Below, piece by piece: positions 12,588 through 54,766 of a DNA stretch of 64,000 nucleotides. The stretch lies in contig WGMJ01000009.1 in assembly GCA_016125135.1 (NCBI GenBank), positions 1 to 64,000 on the forward strand. The letters run 5' to 3'. The notes under the pieces were generated by a model, which was not told the origin of the DNA, searched no databases, and saw nothing but the letters and a program-made list of their open reading frames with translations. Both the position numbers and the translations under genes were made by a program. Origin of the DNA: Alphaproteobacteria bacterium. Lineage in GTDB: Bacteria > Pseudomonadota > Alphaproteobacteria > Micavibrionales > Micavibrionaceae. The first letter of the stretch is position 1, and each line of letters starts with the position of its first letter.

Positions 12588-13942
12588 TATTCTGTCTGCG
12601 CCGTCTGCGCCATTGCGAGTGACTGGGACAGCCTGCCCTGACTGGCTAGAATTGCATAGAGTGCGCCAAGCGAACGGTAATCAGTTGCAAGGTAATCAAC
12701 TTTTGTCTGCAGATACTGGTTTTCGGCTTGCATAATTTGTGGCAACTTCACTTTGCCGGCTTCAAACTGGTTGCGGTATGTCTCTAGCAGGCCTGCCGAA
12801 ATTTTAAGCTTCTCGGCCTTCAATTCTTTCTGGCGGGAAAGTGCGGAGGCTGTTGCATAACTGCTGCGCACTTGGGTTTCAATTGTTCTTATCAGTTCGT
12901 CTTTTTGCGCCTTTGCCTGGCCTGCTTCGGCAATACTCTTGCGCTTACGGGCAAATTCGGCACCACCCGTTGAAATATCCCACTTCATGCGGACAAGTGC
13001 GCGCGCATCAGCAACTTCACCACCAATTACATCGTTGACATCTTTCTGGTAGTAGGAAAGCTCCCCGTCAAAGCGAGGCAGCAAGGCCGCCGTCTCGGCA
13101 TCAATCTCTTCTGTTTCCGCATTTATTGTTGCCTGGGCAGCCATCACCTGCGGATGTTTTTCTTTCGCGTACAGAATGGCCGATTCAACTTCATCCTGAA
13201 TTGTGACGGGCATTGGCCTTACAAGCGGGCCACTTGGTAAATGCCCTGTTGTTTCGGCATAAGCCGCGTTGGCAGCTTGCATCTGCCCTTCGAAATCAGC
13301 GAGTAAACTACGTACATCGAGCATCACCTGTTTAGCCAGCTGGCTTTCTGACTCATCTGCAGCACCTTCAGCAACCATAGCCGTAATGCGCTCGTCATAA
13401 GAGGCAAGGCGCTTGTAATATTCATTCAGCGCTGTCAATGTTTCGCGTAGGCGCAGTACGTTTAAATAGTTCAACGTTGTATTCAGCATCAAATTTTCAC
13501 GCGCATCGGTGATTTGTATTTCGGCAACTTCTTCACGTGCCTCTGCGGCTGCAACGCGGTGTGGTGTTTGTTGGAAATCATAAATAAGCTGGTTGGCAGA
13601 AACGGACCCTTCACCCATATACGAATAACCTGCACCACGGGTGACGCTTAAACCACGGCTTGTTGCGTTATCGCCGTAAACGCGACCAAAAGCGGCATCA
13701 GTTGTAATGACTGGGAAGTAACCGGAGCGCTCTTCAATCACTTGTTCGACCGCCGCTTCTTTTGCGGCTTGCCCCGCCTGAATTGTCGGATGTGATGAAG
13801 CCGCAGCAGCCAATGCTTCTTCCAATGTTTCCGCAGAAGCTGATGCACCAAGGCTACAAGCAAAAGATAAAGCGACACCGGTGCATAAAAATAATTTATG
13901 CAAACGGGCAATCCTGAACTGTAATAAAGGCGTTAAAGACAT
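12587..13942 (-). CDS. TolC-family outer-membrane channel of the type I system
   Basis: Trimeric outer-membrane and periplasmic tunnel for the type I exporter. From the ATG at 13942 the product has 451 residues with a signal peptide (basic RIARLHK, hydrophobic FLCTGVALSFACSLG, ending near ASASA), then two long helical OEP repeats. A longer frame upstream to 14011 would put 23 unrelated residues before the signal peptide and is rejected. The C-terminal repeat contains the usual QNELKAEKL-like helix and DYLATDYRSLGALYAI. The stop overlaps the ABC start by one base. It is the first gene of the minus-strand operon, divergent from pntAA. Confidence 0.93.
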   Translation of the reverse strand: MSLTPLLQFRIARLHKLFLCTGVALSFACSLGASASAETLEEALAAAASSHPTIQAGQAAKEAAVEQVIEERSGYFPVITTDAAFGRVYGDNATSRGLSVTRGAGYSYMGEGSVSANQLIYDFQQTPHRVAAAEAREEVAEIQITDARENLMLNTTLNYLNVLRLRETLTALNEYYKRLASYDERITAMVAEGAADESESQLAKQVMLDVRSLLADFEGQMQAANAAYAETTGHLPSGPLVRPMPVTIQDEVESAILYAKEKHPQVMAAQATINAETEEIDAETAALLPRFDGELSYYQKDVNDVIGGEVADARALVRMKWDISTGGAEFARKRKSIAEAGQAKAQKDELIRTIETQVRSSYATASALSRQKELKAEKLKISAGLLETYRNQFEAGKVKLPQIMQAENQYLQTKVDYLATDYRSLGALYAILASQGRLSQSLAMAQTAQTE

Positions 13943-13972
13943 GAATTTTTGAGGAAAACTACAGCTTCCCCT

Positions 13973-14002
13973 ACTGTACACCCCCCACTCTAGACTGTAC
14001 AC
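13973..14002. promoter_or_regulatory. Direct repeat in the tolC/pntAA divergent control region
   Basis: ACTGTACAC occurs at 13973-13981 and again at 13994-14002. The 21-base spacing is two helical turns, so a dimeric regulator could bind one face of the DNA. The site lies 31-60 bases upstream of the tolC-like start and 54-83 bases upstream of pntAA. The regulator is unknown. Confidence 0.4.
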
Positions 14003-14003
14003 T

Positions 14004-14025
14004 ATTACCAATCATTTAAGGTAAT
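14004..14025. promoter_or_regulatory. Inverted repeat upstream of pntAA
   Basis: ATTACC and GGTAAT form arms around ten AT-rich bases, 30 bases before the pntAA start. It could be an operator or a weak hairpin. No known motif is claimed. Confidence 0.3.
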
Positions 14026-14055
14026 AGGTAAAACAAAAGCGGGGCCGGATAGCAC

Positions 14056-15189
14056 ATGACAATTATTGCCGCACTCAAAGAACATGCCGCCGATGAAAAT
14101 CGTGTCGCCATAACACCAGAAGTCGCCAAAAAGCTGAAAGGCCTTGGCTTCGCCGTTATTATAGAAACTGGCGCAGGACTCCCAGCGCTTTACCCTGATA
14201 CATTATATAAGGACGCGGGCGCAGAGATTGCCCTGAGCGCCGAAGATGCTGCCAAACGGGCCGATGTTATTGTAACCCTCCAACCTGCTGCCATTCCCGC
14301 TCTTGCACAGGCAAAATCAAGTGCGTTTGTCATCGGGCTTGTAAACCCGTACCAGAATAAAGATTTCCTACAAAAATCTGCCACGCAAGGCGTAACAGCT
14401 ATTGCCATGGAGCTCGTGCCACGCATTACCCGCGCGCAGGCGATGGATGTTCTTTCATCGCAAGCAAACCTTGCAGGCTATAAAGCCGTGCTAGAAGCCG
14501 CCGCACTTTACCAACGCGGCATGCCGATGATGATGACAGCAGCAGGCACAGTTGCCGCTGCGCGCGTATTTGTTATGGGGGCTGGTGTTGCTGGCTTGCA
14601 AGCAATTGCAACAGCCCGCCGTTTGGGCGCTATTGTATCAGCAACCGATGTACGCCTTGCCGCCAAAGAGCAAGTGCAATCATTAGGTGCCACCTTTGTA
14701 ATGGTAGAGGACGAAGAAACAAAAGCTGCTGAAACCTCTGGCGGCTATGCAAAAGAAATGTCTGACGCATATAAAACCAAGCAAGCCCAGCTCATTGCCG
14801 ACACAATTGCCAAGCAGGACATTGTCATTACAACTGCGCTTATACCGGGCCGCCCTGCGCCTAAACTTGTAACAGCGCAGATGATTGCCACCATGAAGCC
14901 CGGCTCTGTTATTGTTGATCTTGCAGCCGAGCAAGGTGGCAATTGTGAACTGACGGAACCCGGCAAAGTTGCCGAGAAAAACAACGTCACAATTGTGGGT
15001 CATCGCAATATGGCGGCCCGTATTGCCAGCGATGCCTCATCACTCTATGCCCGTAACGTTCTAAACCTGCTGCAATTGATGCAGAACAAGGAAACAAAAG
15101 AAGTTTCCTTGAACCTTGAGGACGAAATTATCAAAGCTGTTACGCTGACGCATAACGGCACAATCGTGAACGACAAATTCGCAAACTAG
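14056..15189 (+). CDS. pntAA: NAD(P) transhydrogenase subunit alpha part 1 (domain I)
   Basis: NAD(H)-binding domain I of the proton-translocating transhydrogenase, which drives hydride transfer from NADH to NADP with the proton-motive force. The 377-residue protein shows the two Rossmann-like lobes of the alanine dehydrogenase/PntA family: start MTIIAALKEHAADENRVAITPEV, the NAD fold VMGAGVAGLQAIATARRLGA (about residues 172-192), the mobile-loop region, and IPGRPAPKLVT. It is split from the membrane part (pntAB, 12 bases downstream), the arrangement known from Rhodospirillum rubrum. Length is normal. Confidence 0.97.
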   Translation: MTIIAALKEHAADENRVAITPEVAKKLKGLGFAVIIETGAGLPALYPDTLYKDAGAEIALSAEDAAKRADVIVTLQPAAIPALAQAKSSAFVIGLVNPYQNKDFLQKSATQGVTAIAMELVPRITRAQAMDVLSSQANLAGYKAVLEAAALYQRGMPMMMTAAGTVAAARVFVMGAGVAGLQAIATARRLGAIVSATDVRLAAKEQVQSLGATFVMVEDEETKAAETSGGYAKEMSDAYKTKQAQLIADTIAKQDIVITTALIPGRPAPKLVTAQMIATMKPGSVIVDLAAEQGGNCELTEPGKVAEKNNVTIVGHRNMAARIASDASSLYARNVLNLLQLMQNKETKEVSLNLEDEIIKAVTLTHNGTIVNDKFAN

Positions 15190-15201
15190 GAGTAGCACAA
15201 A

Positions 15202-15615
15202 ATGACTACAGACCCTTCCCGCCTTTCGCATGATGCCACCGCACTTTCAGAAACAGCCAAGGCCCTTGCTGATCAAGCTGACGCGCTTGCCAGCAATGTT
15301 ATGAACCTGACAACCACTATCTCTCATAGCGCAGGAAGTGATTTTCTTGTGACCGGCCTCACTGTTTTCGTGTTGGCCTGTTTTGTAGGTTATTATGTTG
15401 TCTGGCGCGTTACGCCTGCGCTGCACTCACCCCTGATGGCTGTGACCAACGCCATTTCATCTGTCATTATTGTCGGCGCGCTCATTGCCGCAGGACCCGC
15501 CCATTTCAACTTCTCGACCTTTATGGGCTTTCTTGCCGTCATTCTGGCTGGCATCAATATTTTCGGTGGCTTTATTGTATCGCGCCGTATGCTTCATATG
15601 TTTAAAAAGAAATAA
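15202..15615 (+). CDS. pntAB: NAD(P) transhydrogenase subunit alpha part 2 (membrane domain)
   Basis: The 137-residue protein supplies the N-terminal share of the membrane domain II of transhydrogenase. An amphipathic start of about 50 residues is followed by three to four membrane helices, with the typical phrases [18 protein letters not shown] and [19 protein letters not shown] good ribosome site (GGAG) precedes the ATG. The stop is followed after a single base by the start of a solute-binding protein gene, which separates pntAB from pntB; this insertion is unusual. Confidence 0.97.
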
Positions 15616-15616
15616 A

Positions 15617-16447
15617 ATGAAACATATAACTCTTCTAGTTATAGCTTTTTTTATGTTGGCGCCCCTAAGCGCGCAAGCAAAGGATAATGCTGCGTTTGAC
15701 CGCATCATGGCAAAGCGGGAATTGCGTTGCGGGTATGTAAACTACCCGCCACTCCTTGCCAAAGACCCGAATACAGGCGAGTTCAGCGGCATTGGCGTTG
15801 ATATCATGAAGCGCGTAGCCGAGACGCTTGATGTAAAAATTGTCTGGGCTGAAGAAGTTACATGGGCAACTTATATTGAAGGCCTCCGCAGCAACCGCTA
15901 TGATGCACTCTGTACACTGGATTTCTTCTTGCCGGCCTACGCAGGCAAGCTGGAGATAACAGACCCTGTATTCTATACAGGTATTGGCGTTTATAAACGC
16001 CCGAACGATAGCCGGTTTAAAGAAGGCTTCCGGAGCTTTAATAATAAAGACATTTCCATCTCGGCGATTGATGGCTCCCTTTCAATGATGATCAAAAACT
16101 CTGATTATCCAGAGGCCAAACTTGTTTCCATGCCCAATACGACCGATTATTCTTTTATCCTTTCAAACGTGGTTACAAAAAAAGCAGATGTAACTTTTGT
16201 AGAGCGTAGCGTTGGCAATGATTTCCTGAAGAAAAACCCGAGCGCGTTGATAAACATCGCCGAAAAAAAGCCCCTTCGTATTTACCCTTATTTTATTCCC
16301 ACTGCTATTGGTGAAACAAAATTAAAATCAACGTTCGATGGCATTGTGAGCCTTATGCTGAATAACGGCGAGATCGATGCCATTCTTGATAAATACGAAC
16401 AGGGTACACCGAGCTTTTATCGGGTAACCAAAGGATATCAACAATAG
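15617..16447 (+). CDS. Orphan family 3 solute-binding protein within the pnt operon
   Basis: The ATG at 15617 gives 276 residues with a clear signal peptide (LLVIAFFMLAPLSAQA) and a periplasmic binding fold of the amino-acid type (family 3): LRCGYVNYPPLLAKDPNTGEFSGIGVDIMKRVAETL. A longer frame starting near 15470 overlaps pntAB and is not used. No ABC permease or ATPase gene is adjacent. It starts one base after pntAB and ends 10 bases before pntB, so it must be made with the transhydrogenase. A paralogue with the same N-terminal pattern (CGV..P...DPNTKE..GF) is encoded at 53942-54766. Ligand and partner are unknown; it could be a free binding protein or a cofactor of something in the membrane. 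Confidence 0.85.
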   Translation: MKHITLLVIAFFMLAPLSAQAKDNAAFDRIMAKRELRCGYVNYPPLLAKDPNTGEFSGIGVDIMKRVAETLDVKIVWAEEVTWATYIEGLRSNRYDALCTLDFFLPAYAGKLEITDPVFYTGIGVYKRPNDSRFKEGFRSFNNKDISISAIDGSLSMMIKNSDYPEAKLVSMPNTTDYSFILSNVVTKKADVTFVERSVGNDFLKKNPSALINIAEKKPLRIYPYFIPTAIGETKLKSTFDGIVSLMLNNGEIDAILDKYEQGTPSFYRVTKGYQQ

Positions 16448-16457
16448 AGGTTAAAAA

Positions 16458-17852
16458 ATGCAAACCAGCCTGACTGCTTTTCTTTATCTTATTTCATCTA
16501 TCTGCTTCATTATGGCGTTACGCGACCTTTCAAGTCCTGTAACGGCACGGAGTGGTTTGCGCTACGGTATGGCAGGTATGGCGCTTGCCATTTTCACAAC
16601 ACTCTCGTTGCCGATTGTCGTTTCTTACACATGGATTGTACTTGGCTTGATTATCGGCGGTGTTATTGGTACGGCAATTGCTTTACGCATTCAAATGACG
16701 GCACTGCCGCAACTTGTGGCCGCCTTCCACTCGCTTGTTGGCCTGGCCGCTGTTTTTGTGGCCGCTGCAGCGTTTTATAACCCCGAAGCTTATGGCATTG
16801 GCGTGCGCGGAAACGTCCACCTTGCAAGTTTGATAGAAATGTCACTGGGCGTTGCCATTGGCGCCATTACATTTACAGGATCCGTTATTGCATGGGGCAA
16901 GTTACAAGGCGTAATCTCCGGTAAGCCTGTGCAGTTCAAGGGTCAGCATTTCCTGAATGCCGCACTGGGCGCGCTCCTTGTGCTGCTGATTTTCCTTCTG
17001 TGTGGCACGGAAAGTGATTTGATCTTCTGGGCGATTGTTTTGCTTTCGCTTGTTATCGGCATTCTTATTATTATCCCGATTGGCGGCGCGGATATGCCTG
17101 TTGTTGTTTCAATGTTGAATAGCTACTCGGGCTGGGCGGCAGCCGGTATTGGTTTTACGCTTCATAACAACCTGCTTATTGTCACCGGCGCACTTGTGGG
17201 TGCATCGGGTGCTATTCTTTCCTACATCATGTGTAAAGGTATGAACCGCTCCTTCTTCTCGGTGATCCTTGGTGGCTTTGGCGCTGAAGCGGGGGCTGCC
17301 AGCTCTTATTCTAGTGGCGATAAACAGGCCAAAATTGGCTCGGCTGAAGATGCTGCTTATATTATGAAGAATGCAAGCAAGGTTATTATCGTGCCCGGCT
17401 ACGGGATGGCGGTTGCGCAAGCGCAACACGTTCTCCGCGAAATGGGCGACATACTGAAACGCGAAGGCGTGGAAGTAAAATACGCTATTCACCCTGTAGC
17501 AGGCCGTATGCCGGGGCATATGAACGTGCTGTTGGCTGAAGCAAACGTGCCTTATGATGAGGTATTCGAACTTGAAGATATCAACCGTGACTTTGCCTCT
17601 GCCGATGTTGCCTTTGTGATTGGTGCGAATGATATCACAAACCCTGCCGCAAAATCAGACTCATCTTCGCCCATCTACGGTATGCCGGTACTGGATGTTG
17701 AAAAGGCAAAAACGGTGCTGTTTGTGAAGCGTTCGATGGGGTCAGGCTACGCCGGTATCGATAACCCGCTTTTCTATGCCGATAACACCATGATGCTTCT
17801 GGGTGACGCTAAAAAAGTGACCGAAGAAGTTGTAAAAGCTTTCGAGCATTAG
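16458..17852 (+). CDS. pntB: NAD(P) transhydrogenase subunit beta
   Basis: This subunit carries the remaining membrane helices (about residues 1-260) and the NADP(H)-binding domain III (about 285-464). Domain III shows VIIVPGYGMAVAQAQH, the inverted NADP-binding loop, then YAIHPVAGRMPGHMNVLLAEANVPYDEV, FVIGANDITNPAA and KRSMGSGYAGIDNPLFY, all hallmark segments. At 464 residues it matches the Rhodospirillum-type length. It lies downstream of the solute-binding gene in the same operon. The enzyme supplies NADPH, which may matter here because the isocitrate dehydrogenase in this window appears to be NAD-linked. Confidence 0.97.
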   Translation: MQTSLTAFLYLISSICFIMALRDLSSPVTARSGLRYGMAGMALAIFTTLSLPIVVSYTWIVLGLIIGGVIGTAIALRIQMTALPQLVAAFHSLVGLAAVFVAAAAFYNPEAYGIGVRGNVHLASLIEMSLGVAIGAITFTGSVIAWGKLQGVISGKPVQFKGQHFLNAALGALLVLLIFLLCGTESDLIFWAIVLLSLVIGILIIIPIGGADMPVVVSMLNSYSGWAAAGIGFTLHNNLLIVTGALVGASGAILSYIMCKGMNRSFFSVILGGFGAEAGAASSYSSGDKQAKIGSAEDAAYIMKNASKVIIVPGYGMAVAQAQHVLREMGDILKREGVEVKYAIHPVAGRMPGHMNVLLAEANVPYDEVFELEDINRDFASADVAFVIGANDITNPAAKSDSSSPIYGMPVLDVEKAKTVLFVKRSMGSGYAGIDNPLFYADNTMMLLGDAKKVTEEVVKAFEH

Positions 17853-17853
17853 A

Positions 17854-18360
17854 ATGAACAAAGATATTCATTTTATCCTGACTGGCGGAACAATAGATTC
17901 TGTGTTTGACCCTTCGGCAGATGCCGTTATCGTCAACAAAGCTTCTGTAATTTCAGAATTCATCGAGAATAAAATATTACCACATGCTGATTTTAGCTAT
18001 GAAGTATTAACCATGAAAGATAGCCGCGATATTACCGATCATATACGCGAGGAAATCATTAGAAGCATCACTAAATGTGAGAAGAAAAATATAGTTATTA
18101 CACATGGGACCTACACGATGGCTGAAACAGCATGCTATCTGGATGGAAAAACACCACCTGATAAAACGATCATACTTACGGGCTCCATGTTTCCATTGAA
18201 GGGGTTTTCTGATTCTGATGCGCCTTTTAATCTGGGCTTTGCTATTGCATCGGCAATGGCCCTTCCCTCGGGCATTTATATCGCCATGAACGGGACTGTT
18301 TTTAAGGCACAAGAAGCTCTTAAAGATCTTAAAAAAGCCCGCTTTACCTTCAAAAAATAG
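17854..18360 (+). CDS. Half-length asparaginase-domain protein
   Basis: The 168-residue product aligns with the N-terminal domain of type II L-asparaginases: TGGTIDS near the start, THGTYTMAETA, ILTGSM, DAPFNLGFAIASA and YIAMNGTVF. The entire C-terminal domain is missing. The second triad is incomplete: the Asp of the usual HGTDTM is Tyr, and the Lys in the following helix is not seen. The first Thr (TGGT) is kept. Short asparaginase-domain proteins of this size exist in other bacteria, so it is probably a real gene and not a fragment. It begins one base after pntB and should be co-transcribed. Activity cannot be inferred. Confidence 0.8.
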   Translation: MNKDIHFILTGGTIDSVFDPSADAVIVNKASVISEFIENKILPHADFSYEVLTMKDSRDITDHIREEIIRSITKCEKKNIVITHGTYTMAETACYLDGKTPPDKTIILTGSMFPLKGFSDSDAPFNLGFAIASAMALPSGIYIAMNGTVFKAQEALKDLKKARFTFKK

Positions 18361-18417
18361 CAGTTTTTCTTGCTTTTTGTTGTATATTATGTAAATATAT
18401 AACAAAAGATTAACAAA

Positions 18418-18432
18418 TTAAGCCGATTTTAA
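18418..18432. promoter_or_regulatory. CtrA-like binding site
   Basis: TTAA-N7-TTAA, the full CtrA consensus spacing, occupies 18418-18432, with a further TTAA at 18410-18413. It lies 53 bases before the first hydrolase gene in an AT-rich gap. This matches the site bound by the alphaproteobacterial cell-cycle regulator CtrA, but an AT-rich gap can contain it by chance. Confidence 0.5.
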
Positions 18433-18484
18433 CCCCTATCGCTTGTAATGCTCGTAATCACAAATAAAAAAACGAGAACGGGGA

Positions 18485-19594
18485 ATGGGCAGCTTACGGG
18501 AAAGCTACGAGCGCATTGCAAGCCTGAAAAGGCTTATTCTTGATGAACCTGAAAAAATGGAGCATCAATCATTTGCTATTGGTAATAGCTACATAAGAGC
18601 CGCCAAGATTCCACCAGCAGAAGGGAAACAAGAAAAAGGACAGGTCATCCTTGCGACAGGATTTAATGAAAGTTTCCATGACCATTATGAAAGAATAAAA
18701 TACTTCACCGACAGAGGTTACACCGTTTTCACGCCTGACTGGGCTGGCCAAGGTACCTCTGGACAAAAGTTAGGCCAGAAATTAGGCAAGCCGCGCACAG
18801 ATGGACATGACGATGATGTCAGAGATCTGGATATCCTGATACGCGATAAGTGGAAAATTGATTTCTCGAAACCAACTTTCGTTTTTGGTTATTCCACCGG
18901 CGCACACATTGTTGCCCTTTGGGAAGATCAAAACCCGGATCTAGCACAAAAGCTTGCAGGCAACATCTTTCCCGCTTTAATGGCCGATCTTAAAACACCA
19001 AAGAAATTAATGTCTAGCGATGCAATGTCACATGAAGAATCACATCAGCTTTCCCAGCAAGCTTGCGATATGGGGCTGGAAAATGTCGACCTGCCGAACA
19101 CACGCACAAAAGGCTTCGACCTGACCTATTTTTTCAAACACTCGGTCAAACAATCCGGCAATGCCTTGAAGAAGCTCAATGGGTCAGCACGTGACCATTT
19201 CGGCTCAGAAGCCCGCTTAAGCCGCAGCCCGTTCAAAATGCCGACCTTTGGCTGGGTTGCGGCAGCTTATCGTACACTTAAAAAAACTGCTTCACCTGAG
19301 CTTTGGAAAAATATCAACGTGCCAACCCTTATTCTGACCGGCACCAAAGACGAAGTCGTTGATATTGATGCCAACGTTGCAGCAGCAGCCAATATTCCCG
19401 ATAATAAAGGCCAGCATATTACCCTTGAAGGTGTAGACCACTCGCTTTGGTCAATGAATGACGAAGCCTATGATAAAATGTTCGGGTATATTGAGACTTT
19501 TATGGATGAGTGCGTTGATAAATTTCATCTTGGACAATATATGCCGAGCCCCGCCAACGACATAGGCCCTGTTATTACGCCTAAAGTTGCGTAA
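18485..19594 (+). CDS. Alpha/beta hydrolase, lysophospholipase-like
   Basis: The 369-residue soluble protein has the S33/PldB-type alpha/beta hydrolase fold. Visible are VILATGFNESFHDHYERIKYF (oxyanion region), DWAGQGTSGQ, the nucleophile elbow FGYSTGAH (Ser near residue 137), a lid insertion of about 100 residues, TGTKDEVVDI (acid Asp near 290) and VDHSLW (His near 319). The catalytic set is thus complete. The usual HG motif after the first strand is TGFNE, a difference from most lysophospholipases. Substrate is unknown. A related hydrolase follows after 26 bases, and the pair may form an operon with a CtrA-like site upstream. Confidence 0.85.
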   Translation: MGSLRESYERIASLKRLILDEPEKMEHQSFAIGNSYIRAAKIPPAEGKQEKGQVILATGFNESFHDHYERIKYFTDRGYTVFTPDWAGQGTSGQKLGQKLGKPRTDGHDDDVRDLDILIRDKWKIDFSKPTFVFGYSTGAHIVALWEDQNPDLAQKLAGNIFPALMADLKTPKKLMSSDAMSHEESHQLSQQACDMGLENVDLPNTRTKGFDLTYFFKHSVKQSGNALKKLNGSARDHFGSEARLSRSPFKMPTFGWVAAAYRTLKKTASPELWKNINVPTLILTGTKDEVVDIDANVAAAANIPDNKGQHITLEGVDHSLWSMNDEAYDKMFGYIETFMDECVDKFHLGQYMPSPANDIGPVITPKVA

Positions 19595-53092: not shown

Positions 53093-53246
53093 TTTTGGGC
53101 CAAGTTTTACCTTGGCAATTCCACACTTGCTGCGGTGAGTCATAGAAGTTTTGGTAATAAAAACAATTGAATCACTTAGACTCGTACATAAGGGTCAGGT
53201 TCTCTGGCCCATCAACCTTTCTTCATTTCTTGAAAAGGACATTTAC

Positions 53247-53840
53247 ATGATCAATATAAAACCTCTTATCGCTGAACTACTCGGAACATTCCTTCTGGCA
53301 CTTGTTGTCACATGTATGCTGGGGGGTGCATTTCCAGTGCCTGTCGCTGTCATGGCGGGTCTTGCTCTCGGGCTTGGTGTTTATATTTTTGGTGGCATAT
53401 CCGGCGCACATCTCAATCCGGCCATTACTTTAGGCTTGCTGGCTATTAAAAAAGTAACCATGAAAGACGCTGGTCTTTACATCGTTGCGCAACTTATTGG
53501 GGGCGCCCTCGCTATGATGGTTGTTGGTGAGCTTCTCACAGCGCCAACCCTCACTGTAGGCACTGACCACATGATCCTCCTCTGGGAAGGCCTCGGCGCT
53601 ATGGTTCTTGCACTTGGCGTTGCCGCGGTTGTGCATGGTAAAACATCACAAGGCTCTTCAGGTCTTGTTGTTGGTGGTGCCTTGATGCTTGGTATCGCGC
53701 TTGCTGTTATCGGTGGTACAAACGGTATGTTGAACCCGGCTGTCGCTATCGCAACAGGTTCCATCTCTTTGCATTATATCTTGGGGCCAATCATCGGCGC
53801 TGTTGTTGGTATGTTTGTTTATAAGCATATCGCTGAGTAA
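53247..53840 (+). CDS. Aquaporin/MIP-family channel
   Basis: The ATG at 53247 gives 197 residues beginning MINIKPLIAELLGTFLLAL, with an AAAGGA ribosome site; an extended frame from 53151 is rejected. Six membrane helices carry the two NPA motifs, HLNPAITLGL and MLNPAVAIA. The protein is shorter than many aquaporins. The aromatic/arginine position after the second NPA is Val in place of Arg (NPAVAIA rather than NPAR), so the selectivity may differ from water channels. The 154-base gap upstream may be a leader. A strong terminator follows. Confidence 0.9.
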   Translation: MINIKPLIAELLGTFLLALVVTCMLGGAFPVPVAVMAGLALGLGVYIFGGISGAHLNPAITLGLLAIKKVTMKDAGLYIVAQLIGGALAMMVVGELLTAPTLTVGTDHMILLWEGLGAMVLALGVAAVVHGKTSQGSSGLVVGGALMLGIALAVIGGTNGMLNPAVAIATGSISLHYILGPIIGAVVGMFVYKHIAE

Positions 53841-53864: not shown

Positions 53865-53890
53865 AAAGCCGCCCCCGCCAGGGCGGCTTT
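53865..53890 (+). terminator. Rho-independent terminator after the aquaporin gene
   Basis: AAAGCCGCCC and GGGCGGCTTT pair around a six-base loop, followed by TATTTT. It separates the aquaporin gene from the solute-binding protein gene downstream. Confidence 0.9.
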
Positions 53891-53941
53891 TATTTTGTGC
53901 CGGTTTCAGCTAAAGTCCTACATAATCGGAGACTTAATTAT

Positions 53942-54766
53942 ATGAAACAGTTTTTATTTCTGCTTATCGTTCTTTTATCTGCATCTTCTTCTGCCCATGC
54001 CGCCGAGTCTACCTATGACCGCGTGATTGCAAAAAATGAAATTGTTTGCGGCGTTGCGCCATGGGCCCCCTATAAAGAATACGACCCCAATACAAAAGAA
54101 TGGAAAGGCTTTGCAATTGAAATATACAAACGCGCCTTTGCAACCCTTGATATAAAAGTAACTTTCAAGGAAGTCATTCTTGGTGCACAGGTACAGGATT
54201 TGAACAATGGTAATGTTGATGCCATTTGTGATGACGGGCCATGGACAATGTCATCCGGCAAATTTGTTGAATATTCCGATCCGCTTTACGCCAGCATTGT
54301 TTTTCCCTATGTCCGCAAGGGTGATGCGCGCTTTAAAACACGTGCCGACCTGAACAAAGCGGATATAAAATTCACCGGCATTGATGGTGACCTTTCAAGT
54401 GATCTGGTGCGCCGCCTGTTCCCGCAAGCACAGCTTGCCACAATGCCTGGCAATACCGATGTTTCACAACTTTATCTGAACGTCGCCACCAAAAAAGCCG
54501 ATATTGTGATTGCCGACCCCGGTTCTTTCTCGGCCTATAACGAAACCAACCCCGGCCAACTTGTACCACTTTTCAAAGACACGCCTTTGGGCCGTTATAA
54601 AACTGTCATTAGCGTTAAAAAGGGCGATGTAAAAATGCTAGGCCTTGTGAATCAGGCAGTTGATAACGCGCTTGCTTTCGGGATTGCTGATGAAATTCTT
54701 GACGGGTTTGATCCGACACATGACAAACTGGCCCGCGTCAGAAGCCGTTTCGTAACAGGTCAATAA
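53942..54766 (+). CDS. Orphan family 3 solute-binding protein
   Basis: The ATG at 53942 gives 274 residues with a signal peptide (FLFLLIVLLSASSSAHA) and a GGAG ribosome site. The mature protein is a two-lobed amino-acid-type binding protein (VCGVAPWAPYKEYDPNTKEWKGFAIEIYKRAFATLDIKV). It is clearly a paralogue of the protein at 15617-16447, sharing CGV-x-P-DPNTKE-GF-IxKR-LDIKV. As with that gene, no ABC permease or ATPase gene lies nearby, and the previous gene is a membrane channel with its own terminator. The ligand is unknown. Confidence 0.85.
   Translation: MKQFLFLLIVLLSASSSAHAAESTYDRVIAKNEIVCGVAPWAPYKEYDPNTKEWKGFAIEIYKRAFATLDIKVTFKEVILGAQVQDLNNGNVDAICDDGPWTMSSGKFVEYSDPLYASIVFPYVRKGDARFKTRADLNKADIKFTGIDGDLSSDLVRRLFPQAQLATMPGNTDVSQLYLNVATKKADIVIADPGSFSAYNETNPGQLVPLFKDTPLGRYKTVISVKKGDVKMLGLVNQAVDNALAFGIADEILDGFDPTHDKLARVRSRFVTGQ

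Follow-up and report, generated by a model that had tools for sequence, protein, structure and literature searches.

Why should a gene for a solute-binding protein (SBP) stand between pntAB and pntB? The question is raised by the window, the 64,000-nucleotide stretch of alphaproteobacterial DNA analyzed here, in which five genes lie head to tail on the + strand (14056-18360):

14056-15189, + strand: pntAA, transhydrogenase alpha-1 (PF05222, PF01262)
15202-15615, + strand: pntAB, the 4TM membrane part (PF12769)
15617-16447, + strand: family-3 SBP of 276 aa, between pntAB and pntB (PF00497, E 9.7e-16)
16458-17852, + strand: pntB (PF02233, E 2.1e-195)
17854-18360, + strand: asparaginase N-terminal domain only, 168 aa, the final gene of the run (PF00710)

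The gene order and coordinates given in an earlier note on this DNA hold, with a single base between the pntAB stop and the SBP start. The gap between pntAB and pntB has a median of 38.5 bp over the 54 genomes that carry both genes on one contig (the window's own included) and is below 150 bp in 42 of them, which makes the insert unusual. The window's gene list contains no permease or ATPase gene adjoining this SBP, and a promoter and terminator scan of 13900-18500 returned 9 and 9 matches, against 6.8 and 6.1 expected. The half-length asparaginase gene that ends the run starts one base past the pntB stop.

The SBP gene is a real open reading frame, and its predicted structure is a confident SBP fold. 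By eye, the protein has a signal peptide without a lipobox cysteine. It matches PF00497 with 58.2 bits against a Pfam cut-off of 26.4 and is thus a member of SBP_bac_3; no other Pfam profile matches it at E up to 1e-3, so it does not belong to the TctC family. The AlphaFold2 model (mean pLDDT 93.4, pTM 0.87) has the two-lobe SBP fold, and a structure search with it returned SBPs and their relatives as top matches (Z about 24-27, matches within 1 in Z counting as tied). The best solved fold match is the ancestral cyclohexadienyl dehydratase 6wup (Z 26.8, rmsd 2.1, 232 aligned), followed by 5t0w_A, its amino-acid-binding precursor (Z 26.5, rmsd 2.2, 227 aligned). The closest profile match is also 5t0w (E 3.5e-37). 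Cyclohexadienyl dehydratases, ancestral and modern, are the nearest proteins by both profile and fold, at about 20% identity.

The pnt copy is one of many. The window's genome (2.2 Mb, 23 contigs) encodes a swarm of 22 such SBPs, the same number as its PF00497 matches, in genes that are dispersed and mostly single; one of them (contig 4, 48.2-49.0 kb) is broken over two frames. Many sit close to housekeeping genes and run in their direction; by eye, there are three behind gyrA and another three behind rplO. Another follows nuoD and is separated from nuoE by a 142-residue ORF without a Pfam match. A further copy is found in the window itself:

53193-53840, + strand: aquaporin-like gene (frame translated, true start possibly later; PF00230)
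about 53865-53893, + strand: terminator-like hairpin with a T-rich tail, between the aquaporin and SBP genes (by eye)
53942-54766, + strand: second swarm SBP, 32% identity to the pnt copy

The membrane channel gene that had been noticed beside this paralogue is confirmed as an aquaporin gene by PF00230, with the hairpin between the two. The closest three relatives of the second SBP (68-75% identity) neighbor alaS, scpA and serC (named by eye). A role as aquaporin partner was dropped because these relatives adjoin other genes and the hairpin separates the pair.

The same genome has four BPD-type permeases, which by NCBIfam are two Yej-type, one TauC/SaoP-like and one GlnP/EhuC-like. The sole PAAT permease is encoded on contig 4 (329-332 kb) with a swarm SBP on either side and an ArtP/GlnQ-like ATPase gene (NCBIfam) after the second SBP; the NCBIfam matches of SBP, permease and ATPase all fall far below the equivalog cut-offs. 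The earlier statement that no ABC transporter is near is right locally, but elsewhere the genome does have this permease and ATPase, with a paralogous SBP on each side of the permease.

The sequences of the swarm hint at what its members bind. We take one aligned Arg column of family-3 SBPs to bind the ligand carboxylate and one acid column to bind the amino group. The first holds Arg in 141 of 232 swarm members and Tyr in the window's pnt SBP, so the ligand of this protein may be something other than an ordinary alpha-amino acid. The second is Asp or Glu in 161 of the 232, and here the window's protein has Glu. Since both columns vary across the swarm, its members probably cover several ligands. 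Cysteine 38 (window SBP numbering) is conserved in 228 of the 232, and cysteine 99 in 230. This pair is missing from AncCDT-1 and perhaps forms a disulfide.

SBPs and the PAAT permease go together across genomes. Among 58 genomes, 18 have an SBP match (E up to 1e-3, window's genome included) and 14 have the permease, all of them among the 18; one of the 18, G013, has only a short match (E 2.1e-9) and was left out of the 17 genomes counted below as SBP-bearing. Order-wide, SBPs occur in 29 of 142 genomes (E up to 1e-40) and the permease in 25 (E up to 1e-20), again with every permease genome among the SBP genomes (Fisher 5e-24, kinship ignored). SBPs are found without such a permease in G032, with seven SBPs, and in G042, G045 (64% complete) and G094, with one each. 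In three genomes (loci L187, L191 and L206), the permease gene stands next to the ATPase gene and the pair has no SBP gene as neighbor, so the transporter, if working, must rely on SBPs from other loci. G074, to which L206 belongs, has 19 SBP matches and only three BPD-type permeases, the PAAT one included. The earlier note had named a specific ABC permease elsewhere in the genome as an outcome that would speak against its idea, and the single PAAT permease is probably such a partner.

On balance, we favor a lineage-specific swarm of family-3 SBPs that would share one common permease and whose genes would reside in always-on operons. The sharing is suggested by the co-occurrence together with the transporter loci that lack SBPs; the seven SBPs of G032 and the single ones of G042, G045 and G094 count against it. 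Within the periplasm, swarm SBPs would differ in the amino-acid-like solutes that they bind and would pass these to the single PAAT permease. Their genes would end up in operons with strong, constant transcription because SBPs are needed in large amounts, and in that case the pnt position would supply expression and not a partner.

Orphan SBPs could instead serve sensing, not transport, as periplasmic receptors for regulators or kinases. An XRE-like regulator gene neighbors 13 SBP clusters or genes (three in the first and ten in the second of the two genome sets compared below, all with one sequence pattern), one SBP copy lies 69 bp upstream of a gene that looks kinase-like by eye, and G032 keeps its SBPs without the permease. 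The association in 25 of 25 permease genomes, and in 25 of 29 SBP genomes, is against such a role, as is a pnt run with no regulator or kinase gene, and we regard it as improbable. The XRE-like regulators beside SBPs are of one sequence type and are mostly divergent (e.g. L274, L287, L300, L303).

The pnt junction itself accepts different cargo. The gap between pntAB and pntB is at least 300 bp in 12 of the 54 genomes, filled by SBPs in five (G000, G002, G008, G015 and G032, window's genome included) and by other sequence in seven (G004, G005, G012, G018, G021, G026 and G036). The five SBP cases span five genera of one family; two SBPs occupy the junction in G032, and G015 has an extra one between pntAA and pntAB. 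A further pnt case, with two SBPs, is found in G065, so the insertion is not confined to one strain; such confinement was the other outcome that the earlier note had named as speaking against its idea. At the junction in G018 (L112 5070-5721), a nucleotidyltransferase and a HepT-like ribonuclease form a pair resembling a toxin-antitoxin module.

The inserted SBPs appear to have more than one source. On a 36-row tree, whose rows are BLAST neighbors chosen by hand after a first AU test, the pnt SBPs of G002, G015 and G065 form one group (100/99), those of G008 and G032 a weak second one (86/48), and the window's SBP joins its own paralogue C3:25932 and one of G069 (92/95). This tree rejects a single pnt group (AU p 1.5e-5, six rows), which appears in 0 of 200 bootstrap trees, and also rejects joining the window's SBP to the G002/G015/G065 group (p 0.0013, four rows). 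A 113-row quick tree, with one of 114 SBPs (<200 aa) left out, does not reject a single pnt origin (AU p 0.187, five rows). On a fasttree of 232 rows (4 of 236 SBPs left out), the pnt label needs seven changes and 80 of 500 shuffles are as low, so that pnt SBPs are hardly clustered. Because the 36-row tree rejects a single origin and the 113-row tree does not, several origins of the pnt insertion are favored, though not proven.

These observations bear on the suggestion that the SBP is a periplasmic sensor or partner of the transhydrogenase. A subunit would be expected wherever pnt is, and of 54 genomes 5 have an SBP at the junction. Among the 58 genomes, 17 bear SBPs and just 5 of these have one there; the lineages at the site appear to differ, the junction takes other cargo in 7 of the 54 genomes, and the window's protein is one of 22 paralogues in its own genome. 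A partner role is unlikely, and a specific transhydrogenase partner was dropped as the leading idea on account of the paralogy, the several lineages at the site and the other cargo. The fallback of the earlier note, a ligand-binding protein merely co-expressed with the transhydrogenase, fits best. The pnt case is one instance of the swarm and gives no particular support for transhydrogenase control.

The interruptions extend to other respiratory operons, as SBPs break into pnt, nuo, sdh, pet, cco and atp operons. The first set comprises 70 SBP clusters that do not adjoin the permease or ATPase gene (17 genomes, 114 SBPs), and 13 of them have respiratory neighbors (pnt 6, nuo 3, sdh 2, atp 1, cco 1). 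The respiratory category was fixed in writing before a second set was examined, which was gathered via the permease and not via respiratory operons. From 18 genomes, G059 and G063 were dropped as duplicates of G018 and G017, with which they share contig numbers and places, and G071, G072, G073 and G075 (Obscuribacter, Moraniibacteriota) stayed outside the context count, leaving 12 genomes with 122 SBPs. G058, G062 and G070 have no orphan cluster, and the remaining nine genomes contribute 79, of which 12 touch a contig end. Respiratory neighbors recur in 15 of these 79 (nuo 8, sdh 5, pnt 1, pet 1), and in 12 of the 32 clusters with same-strand neighbors less than 100 bp away on both sides. In each case at least one respiratory neighbor was confirmed by a profile or protein search. 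G067 and G068, with respiratory cases in 0 of 5 and 0 of 11 clusters, count against the preferred reading of a swarm.

Could these placements be neutral, with junctions like that between pntAB and pntB simply tolerating insertions and SBPs landing there through sheer number? The seven junctions of at least 300 bp that hold no SBP and the three SBP lineages that reached the pnt site are what such tolerance would leave. Against this, respiratory operons were struck in both sets well above an assumed 3% share of junctions (binomial tails 9.5e-7 for the first set without the window's case and 1.3e-8 for the second, the share being an assumption and loci of common descent not being independent), and certain inserts have stayed at one site in several genomes. 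If the share is taken as 8%, the excess is modest (0.008 and 0.0014). We consider neutral cargo unlikely, although it is the strongest of the alternatives to a swarm with a common permease.

Common descent accounts for part of the respiratory count, since nuo and sdh labels are clustered on the 232-row SBP tree. One SBP is kept between nuoC and nuoD in G064, G065 and G074, another between nuoG and nuoH in G002 and G074 (70%), and the one between pntAB and pntB in G002, G015 and G065 (63-68% identity); several sdh SBPs also stay at one site across genomes. Such locus-specific conservation counts against the preferred reading. Together with the breadth of pnt, nuo, sdh, pet, cco and atp insertions, it is what one would expect of accessory or sensory subunits, in which the SBP would modulate the transhydrogenase on binding a metabolite, with its relatives acting likewise on other respiratory complexes. 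The window's SBP, however, does not belong to the pnt group that is conserved, and in both sets the majority of orphan clusters (57 of 70 and 64 of 79) have no respiratory gene next to them. Close relatives of the respiratory SBPs sit in other operons on the 232-row tree, and the pnt junction also takes unrelated cargo. Subunits of this kind thus seem very improbable to us. The same low standing applies to the broader notion that the swarm SBPs of respiratory operons could be attached physically to the complexes encoded with them (the transhydrogenase and complexes I to V), as a layer in the periplasm that would read or buffer solutes and adjust energy conversion to the amino acids being imported. 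In G002 (L127 5199-11243), four SBPs separate sdhD from sdhA, and 53 bp past sdhA comes the permease gene, so that transporter parts and complex II share one run.

Set against known systems, the swarm resembles PAAT importers (GlnHPQ, EhuABCD, HisJQMP) in its SBP family and its permease and ATPase types, by weak matches that are far below equivalog cut-offs, and differs in having one permease gene for many SBPs. A PAAT-type permease is present in the window's genome, as one of the four BPD permeases, and the pnt SBP has no adjoining permease or ATPase gene. MxaJ and XoxJ are SBP-like proteins in methanol dehydrogenase operons. They likewise are SBP-fold genes without transporter genes inside a redox-enzyme operon, whereas swarm SBPs occupy many operons. 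A MoxJ-like family for the window's SBP found no support, as no MoxJ-type model is among its NCBIfam matches at E up to 1e-3.

Expansions of TctC-type (Bug) SBPs are known in Bordetella and Rhodoplanes (PMC5994714). From the available excerpt of that paper, both these and the family-3 swarm consist of many paralogous orphan SBPs with tandem arrays and few cognate membrane components, as in the window's genome with 22 SBPs and one PAAT permease. They differ in belonging to TctC and not to family 3, and in genome size (8.2 Mb for Rhodoplanes, against 1.3-3.6 Mb for the swarm-bearing genomes, which have up to about 30 family-3 SBPs), and the excerpt does not mention insertion into respiratory operons (PMC5994714). 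The family-3 swarm occurs in an order related to Micavibrio, and each genome has a single candidate permease. In Pseudomonas aeruginosa, several SBPs, DppA1-A5, are reported to serve one ABC transporter, DppBCDF (PMC4206461). That case concerns five SBPs and a dipeptide transporter and is experimental, whereas the evidence on the swarm is genomic. Among titles and abstract starts of open-licence PMC literature, neither SBP genes in pnt or nuo operons nor SBPs in Micavibrio were found as a topic. The repeated entry of SBPs into respiratory operons, seen again in the second set, is a striking placement pattern that needs explaining whatever the mechanism.

The predator Micavibrio aeruginosavorus ARL-13 is reported to have no known amino-acid, peptide or amine transporters and to miss seven amino-acid pathways (PMC3189940). 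Relatives with one permease and many SBPs therefore make the question of how these bacteria feed directly testable. NCBI taxonomy places the genus Micavibrio under Bdellovibrionota. A permease scan of named genomes returned 28 loci, in Micavibrio MAGs (UBA7689, NAT141, UBA5572) and many other alphaproteobacterial MAGs, and further in an Acidobacteria-titled record (73%), Candidatus Obscuribacter and relatives (60-62%), Moraniibacteriota (49%), a Verrucomicrobium fragment and two distant Yersinia matches (24-25%). Genus g35 is patchy, as G082 and G084 have the permease and SBPs and at least eight other genomes have neither. The Obscuribacter and Moraniibacteriota loci (L203, L204, L205, L207) encode permease and ATPase with a single SBP, and transfer between phyla is possible.
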